Below are positions 19,331 through 28,602 of a DNA stretch of 46,353 bases, piece by piece. The DNA is from Candidatus Geothermincola secundus (GTDB taxonomy: Bacteria > Actinomycetota > Geothermincolia > Geothermincolales > Geothermincolaceae), in assembly GCA_015711755.1 (NCBI GenBank), contig JACVIY010000006.1, positions 1 to 46,353 on the forward strand. The letters are read 5' to 3'. The notes beneath the pieces are model-generated. The model ran no database searches, was not told where the DNA came from, and saw nothing but the letters and a program-made list of their open reading frames with translations. The position numbers were made by a program, and so were the translations under genes. Positions within the stretch are counted from its first letter, which is position 1. Each line of letters opens with the position of its first letter.

Positions 19331-19897
19331 TCACCCGTAACGGCTACCCGGCGCATCGAGCTTCTCGCCGCGCAGGCACAGTGGGCATTCACGGGGATCC
19401 CACGCGGACAGGGGCAGTTCCAAGAGCGCAGTGGTCCGCATGCCTGCCGCCTCTCCCCGCGCTATCAACGCCGCCCTCCCCACCGGCAGGGCGCCCGCTT
19501 TAACCGCGAGTTCCTCCAGCTCATCCAGCGAGCCTCCGGTGGTCACCACATCCTCGACCAGAAGGACCTTCTCACCCGCACGGAGCTCCTGCCCTCTGCG
19601 CAAGACCATCCTGCCCTCCTTCCTCTCGGCGAATACGAAACGGCACCCCATCGCCCGCGCGACCATGAAGCCGATGATGATACCGCCGAGGGCCGGAGAG
19701 AACACCACCTCCGCCCCCAAACCTTTAAGAAGGCCCGCCAAGCGCTCCGCCAGCTCCTCGGCAAGGCGAGGGTGCTGCAGGACCACGGCGCACTGCACGT
19801 AGGTATCGCTGTGCTTCCCGGAGGAGAGGCGAAAATGACCTCGTCGGACGGCAGAATACCGCTCGAATATCTCCAGCAGTCCGTCTCTCGCTTCCAT
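19331..19897 (-). CDS. pyrE: Orotate phosphoribosyltransferase
   Basis: 188 aa; RRGHFRLSSGKHSDTYVQCAVVLQHP, VFSPALGGIIIGFMVAR, VLLVEDVVTTGGSLDEL. Confidence 0.93.
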   Translation of the reverse strand: MEARDGLLEIFERYSAVRRGHFRLSSGKHSDTYVQCAVVLQHPRLAEELAERLAGLLKGLGAEVVFSPALGGIIIGFMVARAMGCRFVFAERKEGRMVLRRGQELRAGEKVLLVEDVVTTGGSLDELEELAVKAGALPVGRAALIARGEAAGMRTTALLELPLSAWDPRECPLCLRGEKLDAPGSRYG

Positions 19898-19972: not shown

Positions 19973-20713
19973 TCAGAGCGACCCCATCTCTTCGAGGATC
20001 TCCCTGGCCCGGAGGGCGGGGTCTTCCGCCGTTATGACCGGCCTTCCCACCACGAGGTAATCGGCCCCCGCCTTCACGGCCTCCGCCGGGGTCCCCACCC
20101 TGGCTTGATCGTTTCTCTCGCTGCCGGCGGGCCTTATGCCCGGGACTACCAATACCGCCTTCCTTCCCAGCTCGCGACGCAGCTCCTTCAGTTCGAGCGC
20201 CGAAGCGACCACTCCCTCCAGCCCGGCTCGCCCGGCCAGGCGGGCCAGGCGCATCACCTGCTCCCGGGGTTCTCCCCGCAGGCCCACTTCCTCGAGGTCA
20301 TCCCCATCCATGCTGGTGAGCACGGTGACCCCGAGGAGCAGGGGGGCGCGACCTCCGCCCCTGAGCGCCCGGTCTCGGGCCTCCCTCGCCGCCTCCAGCA
20401 TCTTCAGCCCTCCCGAGCAGTGCAAGGTGGCCATGTCCACCCCCATCTCCGCCATGGCTTCCACCGCCCGCGCGGCGGTTCGGGGGATGTCATGCACCTT
20501 GAGGTCCAGGAAAACCCTGAATCCCCGCTCTTTGAGCATCTCCACCGCCTTGGGCCCGAAAACCGTAAAGGCCTCCAGGCCCACCTTCACCGTCTTCACT
20601 ATCCCCCGCAACCTTCCGGCCATGCCCGTCAGCTCATCCCAATCGCCCAGGTCCAAGGCGACGATGAGAGGGCTGTGGGGAAGGTCCCATCGTCCCCCGT
20701 TCGTCTTATCCAC
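19973..20713 (-). CDS. pyrF: Orotidine 5'-phosphate decarboxylase
   Basis: 246 aa; LIVALDLGDWDE, VFLDLKVHDIPRTAARAVEAMAEMGVDMATLH, VPGIRPAGSERNDQARVGTPAEAVKAGADYLVVGRPV. Confidence 0.95.
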   Translation of the reverse strand: MDKTNGGRWDLPHSPLIVALDLGDWDELTGMAGRLRGIVKTVKVGLEAFTVFGPKAVEMLKERGFRVFLDLKVHDIPRTAARAVEAMAEMGVDMATLHCSGGLKMLEAAREARDRALRGGGRAPLLLGVTVLTSMDGDDLEEVGLRGEPREQVMRLARLAGRAGLEGVVASALELKELRRELGRKAVLVVPGIRPAGSERNDQARVGTPAEAVKAGADYLVVGRPVITAEDPALRAREILEEMGSL

Positions 20714-20857: not shown

Positions 20858-21781
20858 TCATGCGAGCACCTTTCCCACCAGCTGCCCGACGTTCGCGAGA
20901 CCCTTGCTGAGGAGATACTCCTTAAGTCCCTGAGCGATCATCAAAGGAGTCCGCGGCTCCCTGAAAAGTGCGGTCCCCACCGCCACGGCCCTTGCTCCCA
21001 CCAGGAGCATCTCCACCGCGTCCTCCCAACTGCTGACACCCCCGCAGGCGAGGATGGGCAGATCCACCGCCTTGTACGCCTCCCATACGGCCCGCACCGC
21101 CAGGGGACGCAACGCCGGACCGGAGAGGCCCCCGGTCACCGCTCCCAGCCGCGGCCTCCAGGTCCGTATATCCACCGCCATGGCCGGAAAAGTGTTAACC
21201 AGGCTGAGGCCGTCTGCCCCCGCCTCGGCCACAGCCGCGGCCATCTCTCCCAGAGCGGGGACATTGGGGCTCAGTTTGACCAGCAGAGGCAGGTCGATTA
21301 CCTCTCTCACCGCCGCCACCAGTCCCGCCGCCACTCTCGGCTCCGCGCCGAACTGAAGGCCGCCCCTCTTGACATTGGGGCAGGAGATGTTCAGCTCGAT
21401 GCCGCTCAGACCCTCAGCCCTCCTCAGGACGCGCGCTGTCTCCAGGTAATCCTCTCTGCTGAAGCCGGCCAGGTTGACGATGACCGGCACTCCCCAAGAT
21501 AGGAGCTCGGGCAGGTCCTCCCGAAGGAAGGCCTCGACGCCGCGGTTCTGCAGCCCCACGGAGTTGAGCAAACCGCATGGCGTCTCCCACAGGCGGGGAG
21601 GAGGGTTGCCGGCGCAGGGCCGCAGGGTTACGGCTTTGCTGATTATCCCTCCCAGCCCCTCGACATCCGTTAAGCCCGCATATTCCGTTCCCCTGCCGAA
21701 GGTGCCCGATGCCGCGAGAACGGGGGTGGGCAGCCGTATGCCCGCCAGGTCGGTGGCCAGCGTCATTCTATCCTCTCCCAA
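20858..21781 (-). CDS. pyrD: Dihydroorotate dehydrogenase (class 1B catalytic subunit)
   Basis: 307 aa; NPPPRLWETPCGLLNSVGLQNRGVEAF, ELNISCPNVKRGGLQFG, LVNTFPAMAVDI, LSGPALRPLAVRAVWE, CGGVSSWEDAVEMLLVGARAVAVGTAL; paired with pyrK. Confidence 0.95.
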   Translation of the reverse strand: MGEDRMTLATDLAGIRLPTPVLAASGTFGRGTEYAGLTDVEGLGGIISKAVTLRPCAGNPPPRLWETPCGLLNSVGLQNRGVEAFLREDLPELLSWGVPVIVNLAGFSREDYLETARVLRRAEGLSGIELNISCPNVKRGGLQFGAEPRVAAGLVAAVREVIDLPLLVKLSPNVPALGEMAAAVAEAGADGLSLVNTFPAMAVDIRTWRPRLGAVTGGLSGPALRPLAVRAVWEAYKAVDLPILACGGVSSWEDAVEMLLVGARAVAVGTALFREPRTPLMIAQGLKEYLLSKGLANVGQLVGKVLA

Positions 21782-22545
21782 TCGAGCTCAACGGAGGGGA
21801 AGACGGGGCCGTCCCGGCAAGCCATCCGGTAGCCGGGCGGGTCATCGACCACCGGAACCGCGCACCCCTGGCAGGCTCCGACCCCGCAGGCCATCCTCTC
21901 CTCCACGCTCACCTGCAAGGGTATGCCGGCTTCCTCGCACAAACGGTGGAGCGGTTTGAGCATGGCCGACGGGCCGCAAGCATATGCGCGGGCGACCCCA
22001 TCAAGCCCGCTGTCCCCGAGGAGGTCGAGCACGGTTCCCGCCGCTCCCAGAGTGCCGTCCATGGTGGCGAGACGGGTATCCGCGAGGTCCCCCAGCCGGT
22101 GCGGCAGATGCCCGAAATCGGAGGCGGATTCCATGCCCCAGAAAAGGCGGCAACCCACGCCCTCGCGCCGCAGCTCCACCGCGAGGAAGTGGAGGGGGGC
22201 GATGCCGGTGCCCCCCGCTACCAGCGCCACTTCTTCCCCGGCCGCTGCCGATGCGTAACCCCTGCCCAGCGGGCCCAAGATGTCCAACGGATCTCCGGGC
22301 CGGCGGCACGCCAACCAACGCGAGCCCGCCCCGGTGACCTTCAGGAGGATGCCGAGCGTGCCCCCCTCCACCGAGAACACGCTGTAAGGGCGGCGCAGCA
22401 CCCGCGGCGAATCTTCGCCGCAGATGATATGGACGAACTGCCCGGGGGCCGCGGAGGCGGCTATCTCCGGCGCTCCGACACGCAGGAGAGCGGCATCACC
22501 GCAACCGCGCACCTCCTCCACCACGGCCCGCAGGCGCACCCTCAC
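21763..22545 (-). CDS. pyrK: Dihydroorotate dehydrogenase electron transfer subunit
   Basis: 260 aa; FAD motif RRPYSVFSV, ALVAGGTGIAPLHFLA, CACGPSAMLK, 2Fe-2S ligands ERMACGVGACQGCAVPV...C. Confidence 0.93.
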   Translation of the reverse strand: MRVRLRAVVEEVRGCGDAALLRVGAPEIAASAAPGQFVHIICGEDSPRVLRRPYSVFSVEGGTLGILLKVTGAGSRWLACRRPGDPLDILGPLGRGYASAAAGEEVALVAGGTGIAPLHFLAVELRREGVGCRLFWGMESASDFGHLPHRLGDLADTRLATMDGTLGAAGTVLDLLGDSGLDGVARAYACGPSAMLKPLHRLCEEAGIPLQVSVEERMACGVGACQGCAVPVVDDPPGYRMACRDGPVFPSVELDWERIE

Positions 22546-25487
22546 CTCTGGTCCCCTTCCCGCGTGTCTCCGCGAGGCAGCGGGTTGCCGAAGACGACCC
22601 GGCCTTCCCTGCGGGCATTAAGGGCCTCCACCAGAAGCGTCGCGGCACGCATGTCGGTTATGCAGGGGATGCCGTAGCGGGCGGCGGCCGAACGGATGTA
22701 AAAGCCGTCGGAGCGGGGGCCTTTTCCTCGGGGGGTGTTCACGATGAGGTCCACTTCGCCGTTCTTGATGTAATCGAGGATGCTGGGGCGCCCCTCGCGC
22801 AGTTTTCTCACCTCGACCACTTCCATACCCCCGCGCCGCAGGGCCTCCGCGGTCCCTTCCGTGGCCAGGACGGTGAACCCCAGAGAGGCCATCTCCTTCA
22901 CCATCATCACAGCCGCCCGCTTGTCCCGGTTGGCCACGCTTATGAAGATGTTCCGCTTGCCCTGAAGAGCGTCCAGTTCGCTCGTGAACACCTTGGCGAA
23001 GGCTACCCCTAAGTCAGGCCCGGTCCCCGCCAGGGAGCCCAGGGATCGGCGTTCCGATACCGGCAGCAAGTCCTCCTCTCCCGCCCTCCGCGGCGAGAGG
23101 ACCGTCCTGCGTACGCCCATCAATCCTTCCGGCAGGCGCGGTTCCCGCCCCGGATCCACGAGCATCCCGCAGGCCGCCTTGATCCCCCACTCCTGCGCCG
23201 GCCATCCGCCCAGGAGGGCGATGAGGGGAAGGGTGGCCGAGGCGCCCAGATAGATCTCCTCCAGCCGGAGATCCCCTTCGCTGATGGCTATGCGCATCCT
23301 CAGGTTTCCGAGGATCCCCAGCTCCTCCGCCGTCCGCAGCGCGAATCCCTCGACCGCATCGACCTGTTCGGGAGTGAGGCCCAAGGGGGGTACCGAAATC
23401 ATGCAGTCGTCCGCGGCTATACCCGCGTCTTCCAGGTTCTGGGCCAAGCCCAAAAGCAAAGCCCCGCCGGGCAAGGCGACCACCTCCGCCAGTACCACCA
23501 CGGCATCCTCGTAGAGGGGCCGCATGGTCATCCTTCCCCCGTAAGGTTCCACTTTCTCGAGATAGAACGACCGCAGGTCCTCAGGGCCGTAGAGGATGGA
23601 GGTGCGCAACGCCTCTCGAGGGCCTCTGGTATAAGCCACGTGCGGGTAACCCACCTGCTGCGCCCATTCCAGCGCCCTCTCCAGGCTCTCCACCTCCTCC
23701 TCGGCGACTATCTGGGGGGCGCCCTCGATAAAGAGCCGCTGCTCCCTGAGGAAGGACGAGCGGAAGGAGAGTGGTCCCGGCGACAGTCCGGGCACCACGC
23801 ATCCCCGACCGCTGAGCTCGGATGTCAGCGAAAGGGAGGCCTCGCCTCCGTACTGGGTGAGGACCTCGCCTACTCCCCGCTCGTCTGCGAACTCCGTGAG
23901 TGCTTCGGCATCCAGAGCCCCCATAAACACCTCGAAGCCCAGGGAGCAGGACAACAGGGCCAGGAGCGGGTTCTCCCCGTAGAGCAGGGGCTCCTTGCCT
24001 GATCCGCGCAGCGCCAGCAGGGCGTTGACGGCGTTGATATCCGCCTCCGCACCCCGCCCGGGGTGATGCGGCTCCCCTCCCAGGAGCAGGACCCCGCCCT
24101 CTCTCGCTTCATCGGCCTTTTCCCCGCCGAAAGGCAGAGGGAAGACGCGGGGGGAACCGCTCTTCCCGCCGCCCCCCGACAGAATCGAGAACCATTCCGG
24201 CAGGCGGCGGGCGCAGCGGCCCAAACCTACCGTTGATCTCCACGCCCGACGCAGCTTGACCTCGGGTGGGAGCATGGTGAAGGCATCCCCCTCATCCGCG
24301 GGGAAGGGCCCTCCGCTTACATCGGCATCCGCGAGCAGGCCCCGCAACCGCTTGGAGGCCTCCTCCAGGTCCTTTCCCCAGGCCATCCACTCGCCGACCG
24401 ATGATCTCTCCATGTCCAGCAGGGAGTCCTCTTCGACTTCGGCCCCACCATGGAAGGGGAGGCGGACGGCCACATGCCCCACGCTTCCCCGAGAGATGGC
24501 GAGATCCTCTACCCCACGCCCCAGGGCGAGTAAAAGATCCGCCTCCGCTGCGTCGCAACCGCAGGCGAAAAGAACGAAAAGGGAGGATTGTCCGGGACCC
24601 GGATGGGCCTCGCTAACATAGATCTCCTCCAGGCGCGGGTGCACCAGGATCTCCAGTTCCAGCACGCCCCTGATGTCCAGGATGTCTGCCGTCTTCCCGG
24701 CCATCTCCTTTAAAAAGTACTCCAATTCCCCTCCCATGCTTCGGGGCGGGCTTATCCATAACGAATCGCCTCCGTGCATCCCCGCCGGCTCCAGCTGTTC
24801 GATTATCCCCAGCACCGCTTTCTCGCCCCGCTGGTCCCGCGCAACCAGGCAGGAGAACTCGCGCCAGCCACTCAGGTCCTCCTCCACCGTCACCTCGTGC
24901 ACCGGGCTGCGGCGCAGAGCGGCCATCAGCTTGCCCAGGTACTCCTCCCGGTTGCAGGCACGGGATGAGCCAAGGCCTCCCGCCGTATAATGCGGTCTGA
25001 TCACCAGGGGGAACCCGACCTTGCGCATCGCCTTGATGCCGTCCTCCAGGGACAGCGCCGAAGCGAAACGGGGGACGAAGAGATCGGCGTCCATGAGCAC
25101 TTCCTTGAACAGGGCGCGGTCCTGGGTGCGGTGGACGGCCTGTACGGACGGCCCCAACATGCGGCAACCGCATCGCTTGAGGATTCCGCTCTTGAAGAGC
25201 TCGGTGCTGAGCAGCATGCCCCGCAAGCCGGCCGAGTATCCGGCGATGCACGCGGGGCCCTCCCTTTCCAGCACCGCCTCCACGCTCTCAGCGGTCATCG
25301 GTTCCAGGAAGAAACGTGAGCAGGTGCCGGGGATGGTCAAAAGCGAGGTCTCGCTGGAATCCAGGCCGAGGATCGTAAACCCTTCTCGCGAGAGCACGTC
25401 GGCGGTACGCCAAGCGGAATAGGCGGCACCGGTGCCGCACTCCGGCGTGAGAGGCCCCGCTCCCAGGACCAGGACTTTGTCGCTCAA
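22542..25487 (-). CDS. carB: Divergent carbamoyl-phosphate synthase large subunit-like protein with degenerate ATP-grasp sites
   Basis: 981 aa. CarB-like colinear landmarks: VLVLGAGPL, TQDRALFKEVL, VIRPHYTAGGLGSS, EQLEPAGMHGGDSLWISPP, GEWMAWGKDLEEASKRLRGL, QYGGEASL, AQNLEDAGIAADDCMISVPPLGLT and a C-terminal MGS-like domain (RNIFISVANRDKRAAVMMVKEMASLGFTVLATEGTAEALRRGG...NTPRGKGPRSDGFYIRSAAARYGIPCITDM). EVNPR motifs absent in both halves. Confidence 0.85.
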   Translation of the reverse strand: MSDKVLVLGAGPLTPECGTGAAYSAWRTADVLSREGFTILGLDSSETSLLTIPGTCSRFFLEPMTAESVEAVLEREGPACIAGYSAGLRGMLLSTELFKSGILKRCGCRMLGPSVQAVHRTQDRALFKEVLMDADLFVPRFASALSLEDGIKAMRKVGFPLVIRPHYTAGGLGSSRACNREEYLGKLMAALRRSPVHEVTVEEDLSGWREFSCLVARDQRGEKAVLGIIEQLEPAGMHGGDSLWISPPRSMGGELEYFLKEMAGKTADILDIRGVLELEILVHPRLEEIYVSEAHPGPGQSSLFVLFACGCDAAEADLLLALGRGVEDLAISRGSVGHVAVRLPFHGGAEVEEDSLLDMERSSVGEWMAWGKDLEEASKRLRGLLADADVSGGPFPADEGDAFTMLPPEVKLRRAWRSTVGLGRCARRLPEWFSILSGGGGKSGSPRVFPLPFGGEKADEAREGGVLLLGGEPHHPGRGAEADINAVNALLALRGSGKEPLLYGENPLLALLSCSLGFEVFMGALDAEALTEFADERGVGEVLTQYGGEASLSLTSELSGRGCVVPGLSPGPLSFRSSFLREQRLFIEGAPQIVAEEEVESLERALEWAQQVGYPHVAYTRGPREALRTSILYGPEDLRSFYLEKVEPYGGRMTMRPLYEDAVVVLAEVVALPGGALLLGLAQNLEDAGIAADDCMISVPPLGLTPEQVDAVEGFALRTAEELGILGNLRMRIAISEGDLRLEEIYLGASATLPLIALLGGWPAQEWGIKAACGMLVDPGREPRLPEGLMGVRRTVLSPRRAGEEDLLPVSERRSLGSLAGTGPDLGVAFAKVFTSELDALQGKRNIFISVANRDKRAAVMMVKEMASLGFTVLATEGTAEALRRGGMEVVEVRKLREGRPSILDYIKNGEVDLIVNTPRGKGPRSDGFYIRSAAARYGIPCITDMRAATLLVEALNARREGRVVFGNPLPRGDTREGDQR

Positions 25488-25529: not shown

Positions 25530-26948
25530 TCAGACATCATCCGCGTCGGCGCCGGGGGCGCCGCATCCAATATCGGCCACCGACCCGCACGCCCGACCGC
25601 GACCCATACGCGCTTCTCCGATACTGCCGGACAACCTGGAGCCGGGCGGGAAGAAGAGTTTGCCGTCCTTCACCGTCAGCTCCACCTTCCCCTTCAATCT
25701 CATCCCGTCAAAAGGGCAGTTGCGGCTGAAGGAAAGGAAATCGTCAGCGTCCACCACCCTCTCCGCCTCGGGGTCGAAGGCCACCAGATCGGCCCGAGCT
25801 CCCTTCTTTATCCCCTCTCCGTAGAGACGGGGGTCCAGCCCGAGGGCCCGTGCCGGCCCGGCGGTCAGCCGTTCCACCAAGGCGAAAACGTCCAACGACC
25901 CGCTTTCCAGCAGAGCCGTGCAGCAAGCGGAAAAAGCCGACTCCAACCCGATCATCCCGAAGGGCGCCCTCTCGAACTCCACCTCCTTCTCCTCGAGGGA
26001 ATGGGGGGCATGATCGGTGGCTACCGCGTCGATAACGCCGTCGGCCAAGGCGCGGCGCAGGGCCTCGCGGTCCTCCCGGCTCCCCAGGGGCGGGTTGACC
26101 TTGAAGCGGGGGTCGAGCCCATCCACATCCTCATCGGTGAAGAAGAGGTGGTGGGGCGTCACCTCGGCGGTCACCCGCACGCCGCGCTCCCTGGCCGCCC
26201 GCAGCATCTCCACGGAGCGGGCGCTGGACAGATGGGCTAAGTGGATGCGGCTCCCGGTGTGTTCGGCCAGCAGAAGGTCCCGCGCCACCATCACCTCTTC
26301 CGCCATGGAGGGATAGCCGCGCAGGCCCAGGCGGAAACTGCAGGGCCCCTCCCGAACCTGGCCACCCGAGGAGAGCGCGTGGTCCTCGCAGTGATCGATG
26401 ATCAGGCCGTCGAACCGCCTGGCGTACTCCAGGGCGCGCCGCATGACCCCCGCGTCCTGAACGCAGCAGCCGTCATCGGAGAAGGCCACCACCCTTCCGG
26501 CTGAGGAACGCATGCGGTCCATCTCCACCATCCTTCCGCCTTTCCTGCCCACGGTGATGGCCCCCACGCAGAAGACATCGGCCCCCGTCCCCTCGGACGC
26601 CCTGGCGGCGATCTCCTCCGCCACGGCGGCGCAGTCCACGGGCGGATCGGTGTTGGGCATGCAGCAAACGGCGGTGAAGCCGCCGGACAGTGCCGCCAGC
26701 CTTCCCGATGCCAGGGTCTCCTCATCCTCCCTTCCCGGCTCCCTCAAGTGCACGTGCATGTCCAGCCAACCGGGGGAGAGATAGAGCCCCGACAAGTCCA
26801 GGGCGAAAACTTCCGCGCACTCTATCCCCTCCCCTATCTCCGCTATGCGCTTTCCTGATATAAGGATGTCCAGGGTCTCTCCCCTCAGACCGCTGAAGGG
26901 ACAGATGAGTTTGGCCCCCCTCAGGAGGATCCTATCCCGATTCGGCAT
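25530..26948 (-). CDS. pyrC: Dihydroorotase
   Basis: 472 aa; GWLDMHVHLREPGREDEETLASG, MPNTDPPVD, IDHCEDHAL, HLAHLSSARSVEML, ATDHAPHSLEEKE; metal ligands present, so probably active; about 30-aa C-terminal tail. Confidence 0.95.
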   Translation of the reverse strand: MPNRDRILLRGAKLICPFSGLRGETLDILISGKRIAEIGEGIECAEVFALDLSGLYLSPGWLDMHVHLREPGREDEETLASGRLAALSGGFTAVCCMPNTDPPVDCAAVAEEIAARASEGTGADVFCVGAITVGRKGGRMVEMDRMRSSAGRVVAFSDDGCCVQDAGVMRRALEYARRFDGLIIDHCEDHALSSGGQVREGPCSFRLGLRGYPSMAEEVMVARDLLLAEHTGSRIHLAHLSSARSVEMLRAARERGVRVTAEVTPHHLFFTDEDVDGLDPRFKVNPPLGSREDREALRRALADGVIDAVATDHAPHSLEEKEVEFERAPFGMIGLESAFSACCTALLESGSLDVFALVERLTAGPARALGLDPRLYGEGIKKGARADLVAFDPEAERVVDADDFLSFSRNCPFDGMRLKGKVELTVKDGKLFFPPGSRLSGSIGEARMGRGRACGSVADIGCGAPGADADDV

Positions 26949-27885
26949 CTCCGCCCTCCTTTCCCCCCAGGGCCATGAAGAGCACGGCCATGCGCACCGC
27001 CAGGCCGCTGGTCACCTGATCCAGCATGACTGCACGCGGGCCGTCGGCCACCTCCGCCGATATCTCCACGCCCCGGTTGATGGGCCCGGGGTGCATCACC
27101 AAGGCATGCGGCCGAGCCCTCCCCAGCCTGCGCGCGTCCATCTGGTAAGCAGCGGCATATTCCCTGAGGGAGGGTATGAGCCCCTCTTCCTGCCTCTCCG
27201 TCTGCAGTCTAAGCAGATAGAAGACATCGCAGTCCTCCAGCACGTCCTCCAGCACGTAAGAAAAACGCGTCTCCGGGGGCAATCCCGCGGGCATCAGGGT
27301 GGGGGGTGCCACCAAGACCACTTCGGCCCCCAACATGGTGAAGGCCTTGATGCAGGAGCGGGCCACCCTCGAGTGCATGATGTCCCCTACGATCGCGATC
27401 CTCTTGTCCTGGAGGCAGCCGATCCTGCGGATGAGCGCGTAACAGTCCAGCAGGGCCTGAGTGGGATGGGCGTGCATGCCGTCGCCGGCGTTTATCACCG
27501 CCGCGTCGGTCCAGCCATCGATGACCCCGGGGGCGCCGGAGCAGGGATGCCGCACCACCAAGGCGTCCACTCCCATGGCCTGCAGAGTGAGGACGGTGTC
27601 CTTGAGGGCCTCCCCCTTGACCACGCTGGAAGCGGCCGCCGCGAAGTTGACGACATCCGCGGAAAGGCGTTTGGCGGCGAGCTCGAAGGATATGCGGGTT
27701 CGGGTGGACGGCTCGAAGAAGAGATTGACCACGGTTCGGCCTCGCAGGGCCGGGACCTTTTTCACCGCTCGGCGCGAGACCTCCTCGAAGGAGCGGGCGG
27801 TGTCCAGGAGCCAATGGACTTCAGCCGGAGTGAGCTGATCCACGTCGATGAGACTGCGCCCCCTGCGTGCCGCTGCCGCATCCAA
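26932..27885 (-). CDS. pyrB: Aspartate carbamoyltransferase catalytic subunit
   Basis: 317 aa; LFFEPSTRTRISFELAAKRL, VVRHPCSGAP, GDGMHAHPTQALLDCYAL, HPGPINRGVEI. Confidence 0.96.
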   Translation of the reverse strand: MDAAAARRGRSLIDVDQLTPAEVHWLLDTARSFEEVSRRAVKKVPALRGRTVVNLFFEPSTRTRISFELAAKRLSADVVNFAAAASSVVKGEALKDTVLTLQAMGVDALVVRHPCSGAPGVIDGWTDAAVINAGDGMHAHPTQALLDCYALIRRIGCLQDKRIAIVGDIMHSRVARSCIKAFTMLGAEVVLVAPPTLMPAGLPPETRFSYVLEDVLEDCDVFYLLRLQTERQEEGLIPSLREYAAAYQMDARRLGRARPHALVMHPGPINRGVEISAEVADGPRAVMLDQVTSGLAVRMAVLFMALGGKEGGDAESG

Positions 27886-27886
27886 C

Positions 27887-28453
<567 letters not shown>

Positions 28454-28545: not shown

Positions 28546-28578
28546 ATAAAGAAATGCCCGCCGCTCAGCGGCAGGCAT
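28546..28578 (-). terminator. Rho-independent terminator in pyr leader (attenuator)
   Basis: Minus strand ATGCCTGCCGCTGAGCGGCGGGCAT followed by TTCTTTAT; lies between PyrR binding loop and pyrR start. Confidence 0.7.
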
Positions 28579-28602
28579 CAGGACCCTCATGATCACCATC
28601 AA

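Follow-up and report, generated by a model that had tools for sequence, protein, structure and literature searches.

The pyrimidine (pyr) operon of Candidatus Geothermincola secundus contains a homologue of the carbamoyl phosphate synthase (CPS) large subunit, CarB, in which catalytic residues are replaced, and the locus raises the question of what such a protein does there. The gene, here called CarB2, was analyzed in a stretch of 46,353 nucleotides (contig JACVIY010000006.1, hereafter the window) and in its relatives.

The locus and the domains of CarB2

The genes were arranged in the order pyrR-pyrB-pyrC-CarB2-pyrK-pyrD-pyrF-pyrE, followed by gmk and coaBC. The following operon features were identified:

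27887..28441, minus strand: pyrR
26932..27885, minus strand: pyrB (aspartate carbamoyltransferase)
25530..26948, minus strand: pyrC (dihydroorotase), the neighbour upstream of CarB2
22542..25487, minus strand: CarB2, a 981-aa CarB-derived pseudo-CPSase with a TTG start (ORF, Pfam, TIGR01369, relatives)
21763..22545, minus strand: pyrK, overlapping CarB2 by 4 bp
20858..21781, minus strand: pyrD
19973..20713, minus strand: pyrF
19331..19897, minus strand: pyrE

A first-pass annotation of the window had reported a 981-aa CarB homologue in the pyr operon with a 4-bp overlap to pyrK; its coordinates were exact, and the strand is minus. The frame was uninterrupted across all 981 codons, without an internal stop (ORF check). 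No carA was found in the operon or beside CarB2. Directly upstream of pyrR, a 12-pair hairpin with a T-rich tail was observed (28553..28579, minus strand), which may be an operon attenuator; no Rfam match to a PyrR-type leader was obtained.

CarB2 was colinear with CarB (Pfam), with the CPS domain order and fold present. Its domains were delimited as follows:

25131..25481, minus strand: first pre-ATP-grasp domain, CPSase_L_D1, residues 3–119 (Pfam PF25596)
24516..25121, minus strand: first ATP-grasp domain, CPSase_L_D2, residues 123–324 (Pfam PF02786; residue tables)
24123..24512, minus strand: integrating/oligomerisation region, shrunken and fast-evolving, residues 326–455 (identity, omega, length; low pLDDT at 418–461)
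22983..24122, minus strand: second half, residues 456–835, with the CPS fold present and the site 2 catalytic residues gone
22602..22982, minus strand: MGS-like allosteric domain, residues 836–962 (Pfam PF02142; residue tables)

The Pfam match to MGS spanned residues 860–944, and no Pfam match was obtained for the second CPSase_L_D2 stretch of the window's CarB2. The TIGR01369 model matched CarB2 in two pieces (178.9 and 153.1 bits), below its cut-off of 1027, and scored 1544 bits on the canonical CarB of the same genome. A CarB2 profile matched CarB structures at 580 bits. The AlphaFold2 model, built with 13 sequences, had a pLDDT of 77.5 and a pTM of 0.84, and the closest solved structure was E. 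coli CarB (1c30, TM 0.82, Foldseek); the CPS fold is predicted to be retained. Model quality was poor over much of the shrunken middle region. The oligomerisation stretch, already noted as much shortened, measured 79 residues in the window's protein versus 171 in the canonical one, and 49–123 residues in the 13 full-length members versus 171–174.

Catalytic sites and effector domain

Residue calls were made on the 13 full-length CarB2 sequences, two from the window's family and 11 from another family (f3). E. coli CarB numbers were assigned by motif and are presumed, save for those taken from PMC6245113.

At the aligned positions of site 2, R675, R715, H788, Q829, N843 and R845 were lost in 13/13 CarB2 sequences and R848 in 12 of the 13, the window's protein included; the motif readings made earlier for this half of the latter stood. 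Its E744 aligns with E841, and N843 and R845 are gone. Restoration by alignment of the E/N/R metal-site residues in both halves, which the first-pass annotation had proposed as a check, was looked for and not found. On these residues, the carbamate-phosphorylating site (site 2) is judged to be lost. With this site apparently gone and no dedicated glutaminase gene, CarB2 is predicted to be unable to form carbamoyl phosphate through the known reaction sequence. The two competent ATP-grasp sites of a functional CarB were not found in it. The ornithine-site residues of CPS were taken to be E783, D791, E892 and T1042, the position of E892 being assigned by motif. T1042 was retained in 13/13, the D791 position held Asp or Glu, the E783 position was mixed, and the position taken as E892 was retained only in the window's CarB2; the full set was thus not present.

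Site 1 presented another picture. In the window's CarB2, R124, R164, the Gly-loop, E202, H238 and D241 were present, E277/E279 stood in place of N283/Q285, E293 was present, and N301/R303 were lost. In E. coli numbering, the equivalents of R129, R169, H243 and E299 were retained, and Q285 was changed to E, N301 to H and R303 to G; the residue table agreed with the motif readings made earlier at each of these positions. Across all 13 sequences, R129, R169, the last Gly of the loop, E208, H243 and the GDS Asp were retained, E215 was lost, N236 was changed to Gln and N283 to Glu, and E277 and Q231 were new invariant polar residues. At the Q285 position, both sequences of the window's family had Glu and 11/11 f3 members had Lys; at the E299 position, the residues were Glu and Asp, respectively. 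The N301 and R303 positions varied. In f3 members (e.g. L039, L044), the Lys at the metal-ligand position (279 equivalent) was invariant, as was the Glu two residues before it (E277).

Glu is the usual ligand at the Q285 position in related ATP-grasp enzymes, e.g. biotin carboxylase and PurK, and its occurrence there is therefore not by itself a dismantling of site 1. The first half of CarB2 matched PurK at 1.4e-12 and Pfam ATP-grasp at 1.4e-11. With Glu ordinary at this position, the PurK match makes ATP binding at site 1 of the window's CarB2 plausible. Site 1 appears to have been remodelled around invariant nucleotide-binding residues, not dismantled; the earlier wording, which had both catalytic sites dismantled, holds for site 2 (lost in 13/13) and was too strong for site 1.

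The C-terminal MGS-like domain, which had been called recognisable, was so by its Pfam match and by UMP-site residues present in 13/13 sequences. Thr977, Lys993 and Ser948 are important to the control of E. coli CarB by UMP (PMC6245113). S850, K856, T876, T879, K895, R900, N917 and T944 of the window's MGS domain were conserved in 13/13, the equivalents of E. coli S948, K954, T974, T977, K993, N1015 and T1042 were conserved in every full-length CarB2, and the S1018 position held a new Arg in all of them. The phosphate/UMP pocket residues used to recognise an MGS effector domain (S948, T974, T977, K993, N1015) were accordingly found. The canonical CarB of the order also retains its effector-site residues.

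Distribution, constraint and origin

Order-wide counts were made on 18 genomes of an order of uncultured actinobacteria. CarB2 was present in 15/18 genomes (13 full length, two clipped by contig ends), lay between pyrC and pyrK in every genome with readable flanks, and had no adjoining carA of its own in any member. All 13 full-length copies were open (945–1029 codons), and the others were 30–46% identical to that of the window. Since the same gene with the same site 2 losses occurs in all 13, CarB2 is not a chance product. It was truly absent from G002, where pyrC overlaps pyrK directly and the operon otherwise continues; in the other two genomes lacking it, G017 (contig stops at pyrK) and G014 (78% complete), absence cannot be judged. 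A pyrF match between pyrD and pyrE was not found in operons L043, L048, L049 and L069 (three g8 genomes and G002).

The slot between pyrC and pyrK holds canonical carA-carB in other families of the class and phylum. Six further single-piece matches in a 397-genome phylum sample were considered as CarB2 beyond the order and rejected, all being canonical CarB beside carA in a pyr operon. Among 80 loci of named genomes, CarB2 occurred only in SURF_21 (QZKE01000065.1, 'Actinobacteria bacterium isolate SURF_21').

Among f3 members, CarB2 identity was 71% in MGS, 54% in the first ATP-grasp domain, 41% in the second and 29% in the middle region; in the order's canonical CarB it was 86–90% in the ATP-grasp domains and 81% in MGS. 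Constraint is thus inverted in CarB2, where MGS is the most conserved part, as opposed to the catalytic domains in canonical CarB. Within the window's own family pair, MGS identity was 71% for CarB2 and 72% for canonical CarB. Mean identity was 54–80% for the adjoining operon proteins and 47% for whole CarB2. NG86 omega was 0.15–0.32 overall and 0.02–0.20 in MGS, values that are approximate, with dS often near 1; dN/dS was below 1 in every region. CarB2 therefore combines the marks of a pseudoenzyme under selection, namely an open frame, omega < 1 and conservation in relatives, and a pseudogene was rejected, given the open frames and omega. The first-pass view that the gene is maintained, not decaying, stood: decay across relatives was looked for and not found.

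A search of the genome for canonical carA and carB, suggested earlier, yielded one pair, on another contig (genome 82.9% complete). Canonical CarA was present once in 17/18 genomes, the carA-carB pair lay away from the pyr operon, and the only CarA of a genome pairs with the canonical CarB. Near the stand-alone carA-carB of several genomes of the order, a conserved protein was noticed that resembles, by eye, GAF plus an ANTAR-type C-terminus (L001 377..1066; L053, L054, L176, L177).

In the CarB tree, the CarB2 sequences formed one clade, and the order's canonical CarB was placed near deltaproteobacterial sequences, apart from the in-operon CarB of the class. The topology tests left out phyl_L075, a badly cut row present in the first tree. 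Sisterhood of the order's canonical CarB and the class's in-operon CarB was rejected (123 log units, AU p 3.7e-7). The CarA tree had a similar shape, yet sisterhood was not rejected there (AU p 0.44), and this tree was dropped as independent support for a foreign carAB. Placing CarB2 with the CarB of the class or of the order was rejected in neither case (AU p 0.07, 0.23), the branches being long. It is likely, though not proved, that a foreign carAB displaced the native enzyme. That CarB2 descends from the carB native to the operon is suggested mainly by its position there.

Possible roles and known systems

CarB2 is interpreted as a maintained CPS-large-subunit pseudoenzyme, most likely a nucleotide-sensing regulator beside the canonical enzyme, with a probability of roughly 0.55. 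It is best read as a regulator because of its constrained effector pocket, the loss of site 2 and the glutaminase, its slot in the pyr operon and the functional enzyme encoded elsewhere. The MGS domain would sense UMP or a related nucleotide, and the ATP state of the remodelled site 1 might be a second input. The signal could be passed on by binding PyrB, PyrC or PyrK-PyrD, or canonical CarA-CarB, with the target turned either up or down. Historically, catalysis may have passed to a second carAB that the lineage acquired; the native carA would then have been lost, and the native carB would have retained its operon slot and effector domain as its catalytic regions diverged, the steps perhaps following this sequence. 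The fuller version, with CarB2 as a stand-alone pyrimidine-nucleotide sensor made from a whole CPS large subunit, a foreign carAB having displaced the native enzyme and site 1 having been rebuilt as an ATP-reading module, is held tentatively, at somewhat less than even odds. PyrI was absent from all genomes of the order, which leaves their ATCase without a PyrI-type regulator. Against regulation, CarB2 is dispensable in G002, with its otherwise continuing operon; PyrR, already present in the operon, was also counted on this side, and canonical CarB, whose own effector-site residues are retained, leaves no strict need for a second sensor.

Three roles had been offered in the first-pass annotation. 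A non-catalytic regulator acting through MGS is the best supported of them (MGS most constrained, UMP-site residues retained), with ligand and target presumptive. For a partner of canonical CarAB, the precondition was found, one canonical pair in this genome and across the order. The third, a one-site ATP-grasp enzyme that would turn ATP (perhaps with bicarbonate) into carboxyphosphate or perform a new ligation under MGS control, is unlikely. It draws on R129, R169, E208, H243 and the GDS Asp in 13/13, most of the Gly-loop, the new invariant E277 and Q231, Glu at both main metal positions of the window's CarB2 (E279, E293), and the matches of the first half to Pfam ATP-grasp and to PurK, a carboxyphosphate-forming enzyme. 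It is thus compatible with the window's family, but f3 fits it poorly: Lys replaces Q285 (11/11) and Asp replaces E299, E215 is lost in 13/13 and N301 and R303 vary, whereas a conserved reaction would be expected to keep a single set of metal ligands, not Glu/Glu in one family and Lys/Asp in the other.

If CarB2 instead paired with canonical CarA as a second, unusual carbamoyl-phosphate synthase, the sole CarA of each genome could serve two large subunits, but every key site 2 arginine and the metal-site Asn are lost, and we give this hardly any credence; we know of no single-site CPS by this chemistry. A functionless, decaying relic of native CarB would account for the rapid evolution outside MGS, the carA loss and the absence from G002, and is nevertheless very improbable given 13/13 open full-length copies (945–1029 codons), omega < 1 in every domain and the same residues invariant between copies down to 30% identity. 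CarB2 might instead serve the pyrimidine enzymes in a purely structural way, as an assembly factor or channelling scaffold with MGS as a binding surface; this is rather unlikely. The fixed position between pyrC and pyrK speaks for it, as does the inactive pDHO chain required for P. aeruginosa ATCase activity (PMC7053772), but a scaffold alone leaves the invariance of effector-pocket residues, beyond the surface, unexplained.

The inverted constraint makes CarB2 a natural experiment that asks if allostery in CPS is separable from catalysis, and a clear case in which to study how displaced enzymes are reused. Dead partners of pathway enzymes are known in pyrimidine synthesis; none was found described for its first, tightly regulated step, and no description of a pseudo-CarB was found in the literature searched. 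With E. coli CarB (TIGR01369; PDB 1c30, 1bxr), CarB2 shares domain order, fold (TM 0.82), MGS pocket residues and a place in the pyr operon, and differs in the lost site 2, the replaced metal ligands of site 1 and the shrunken oligomerisation domain; unlike functional CarB, it has no adjoining carA and scores far under the TIGR01369 cut-off. PyrI, the regulatory chain of class B ATCase, is a possible analogue only, as a nucleotide-sensing, non-catalytic pyrimidine protein of an unrelated family, absent from this order. The inactive DHOase domain of fungal CPS II-ATCase fusion proteins is likewise a retained dead pathway domain, but is fused and derives from another enzyme. The nearest precedent is the pseudo-dihydroorotase (pDHO, PyrC') of Pseudomonas, a class A ATCase partner with partner and role shown (PMC7053772): like CarB2, it is a catalytically dead homologue retained in the pyrimidine pathway, but it belongs to another enzyme step, whereas CarB2 is known from sequence and retains an effector domain.
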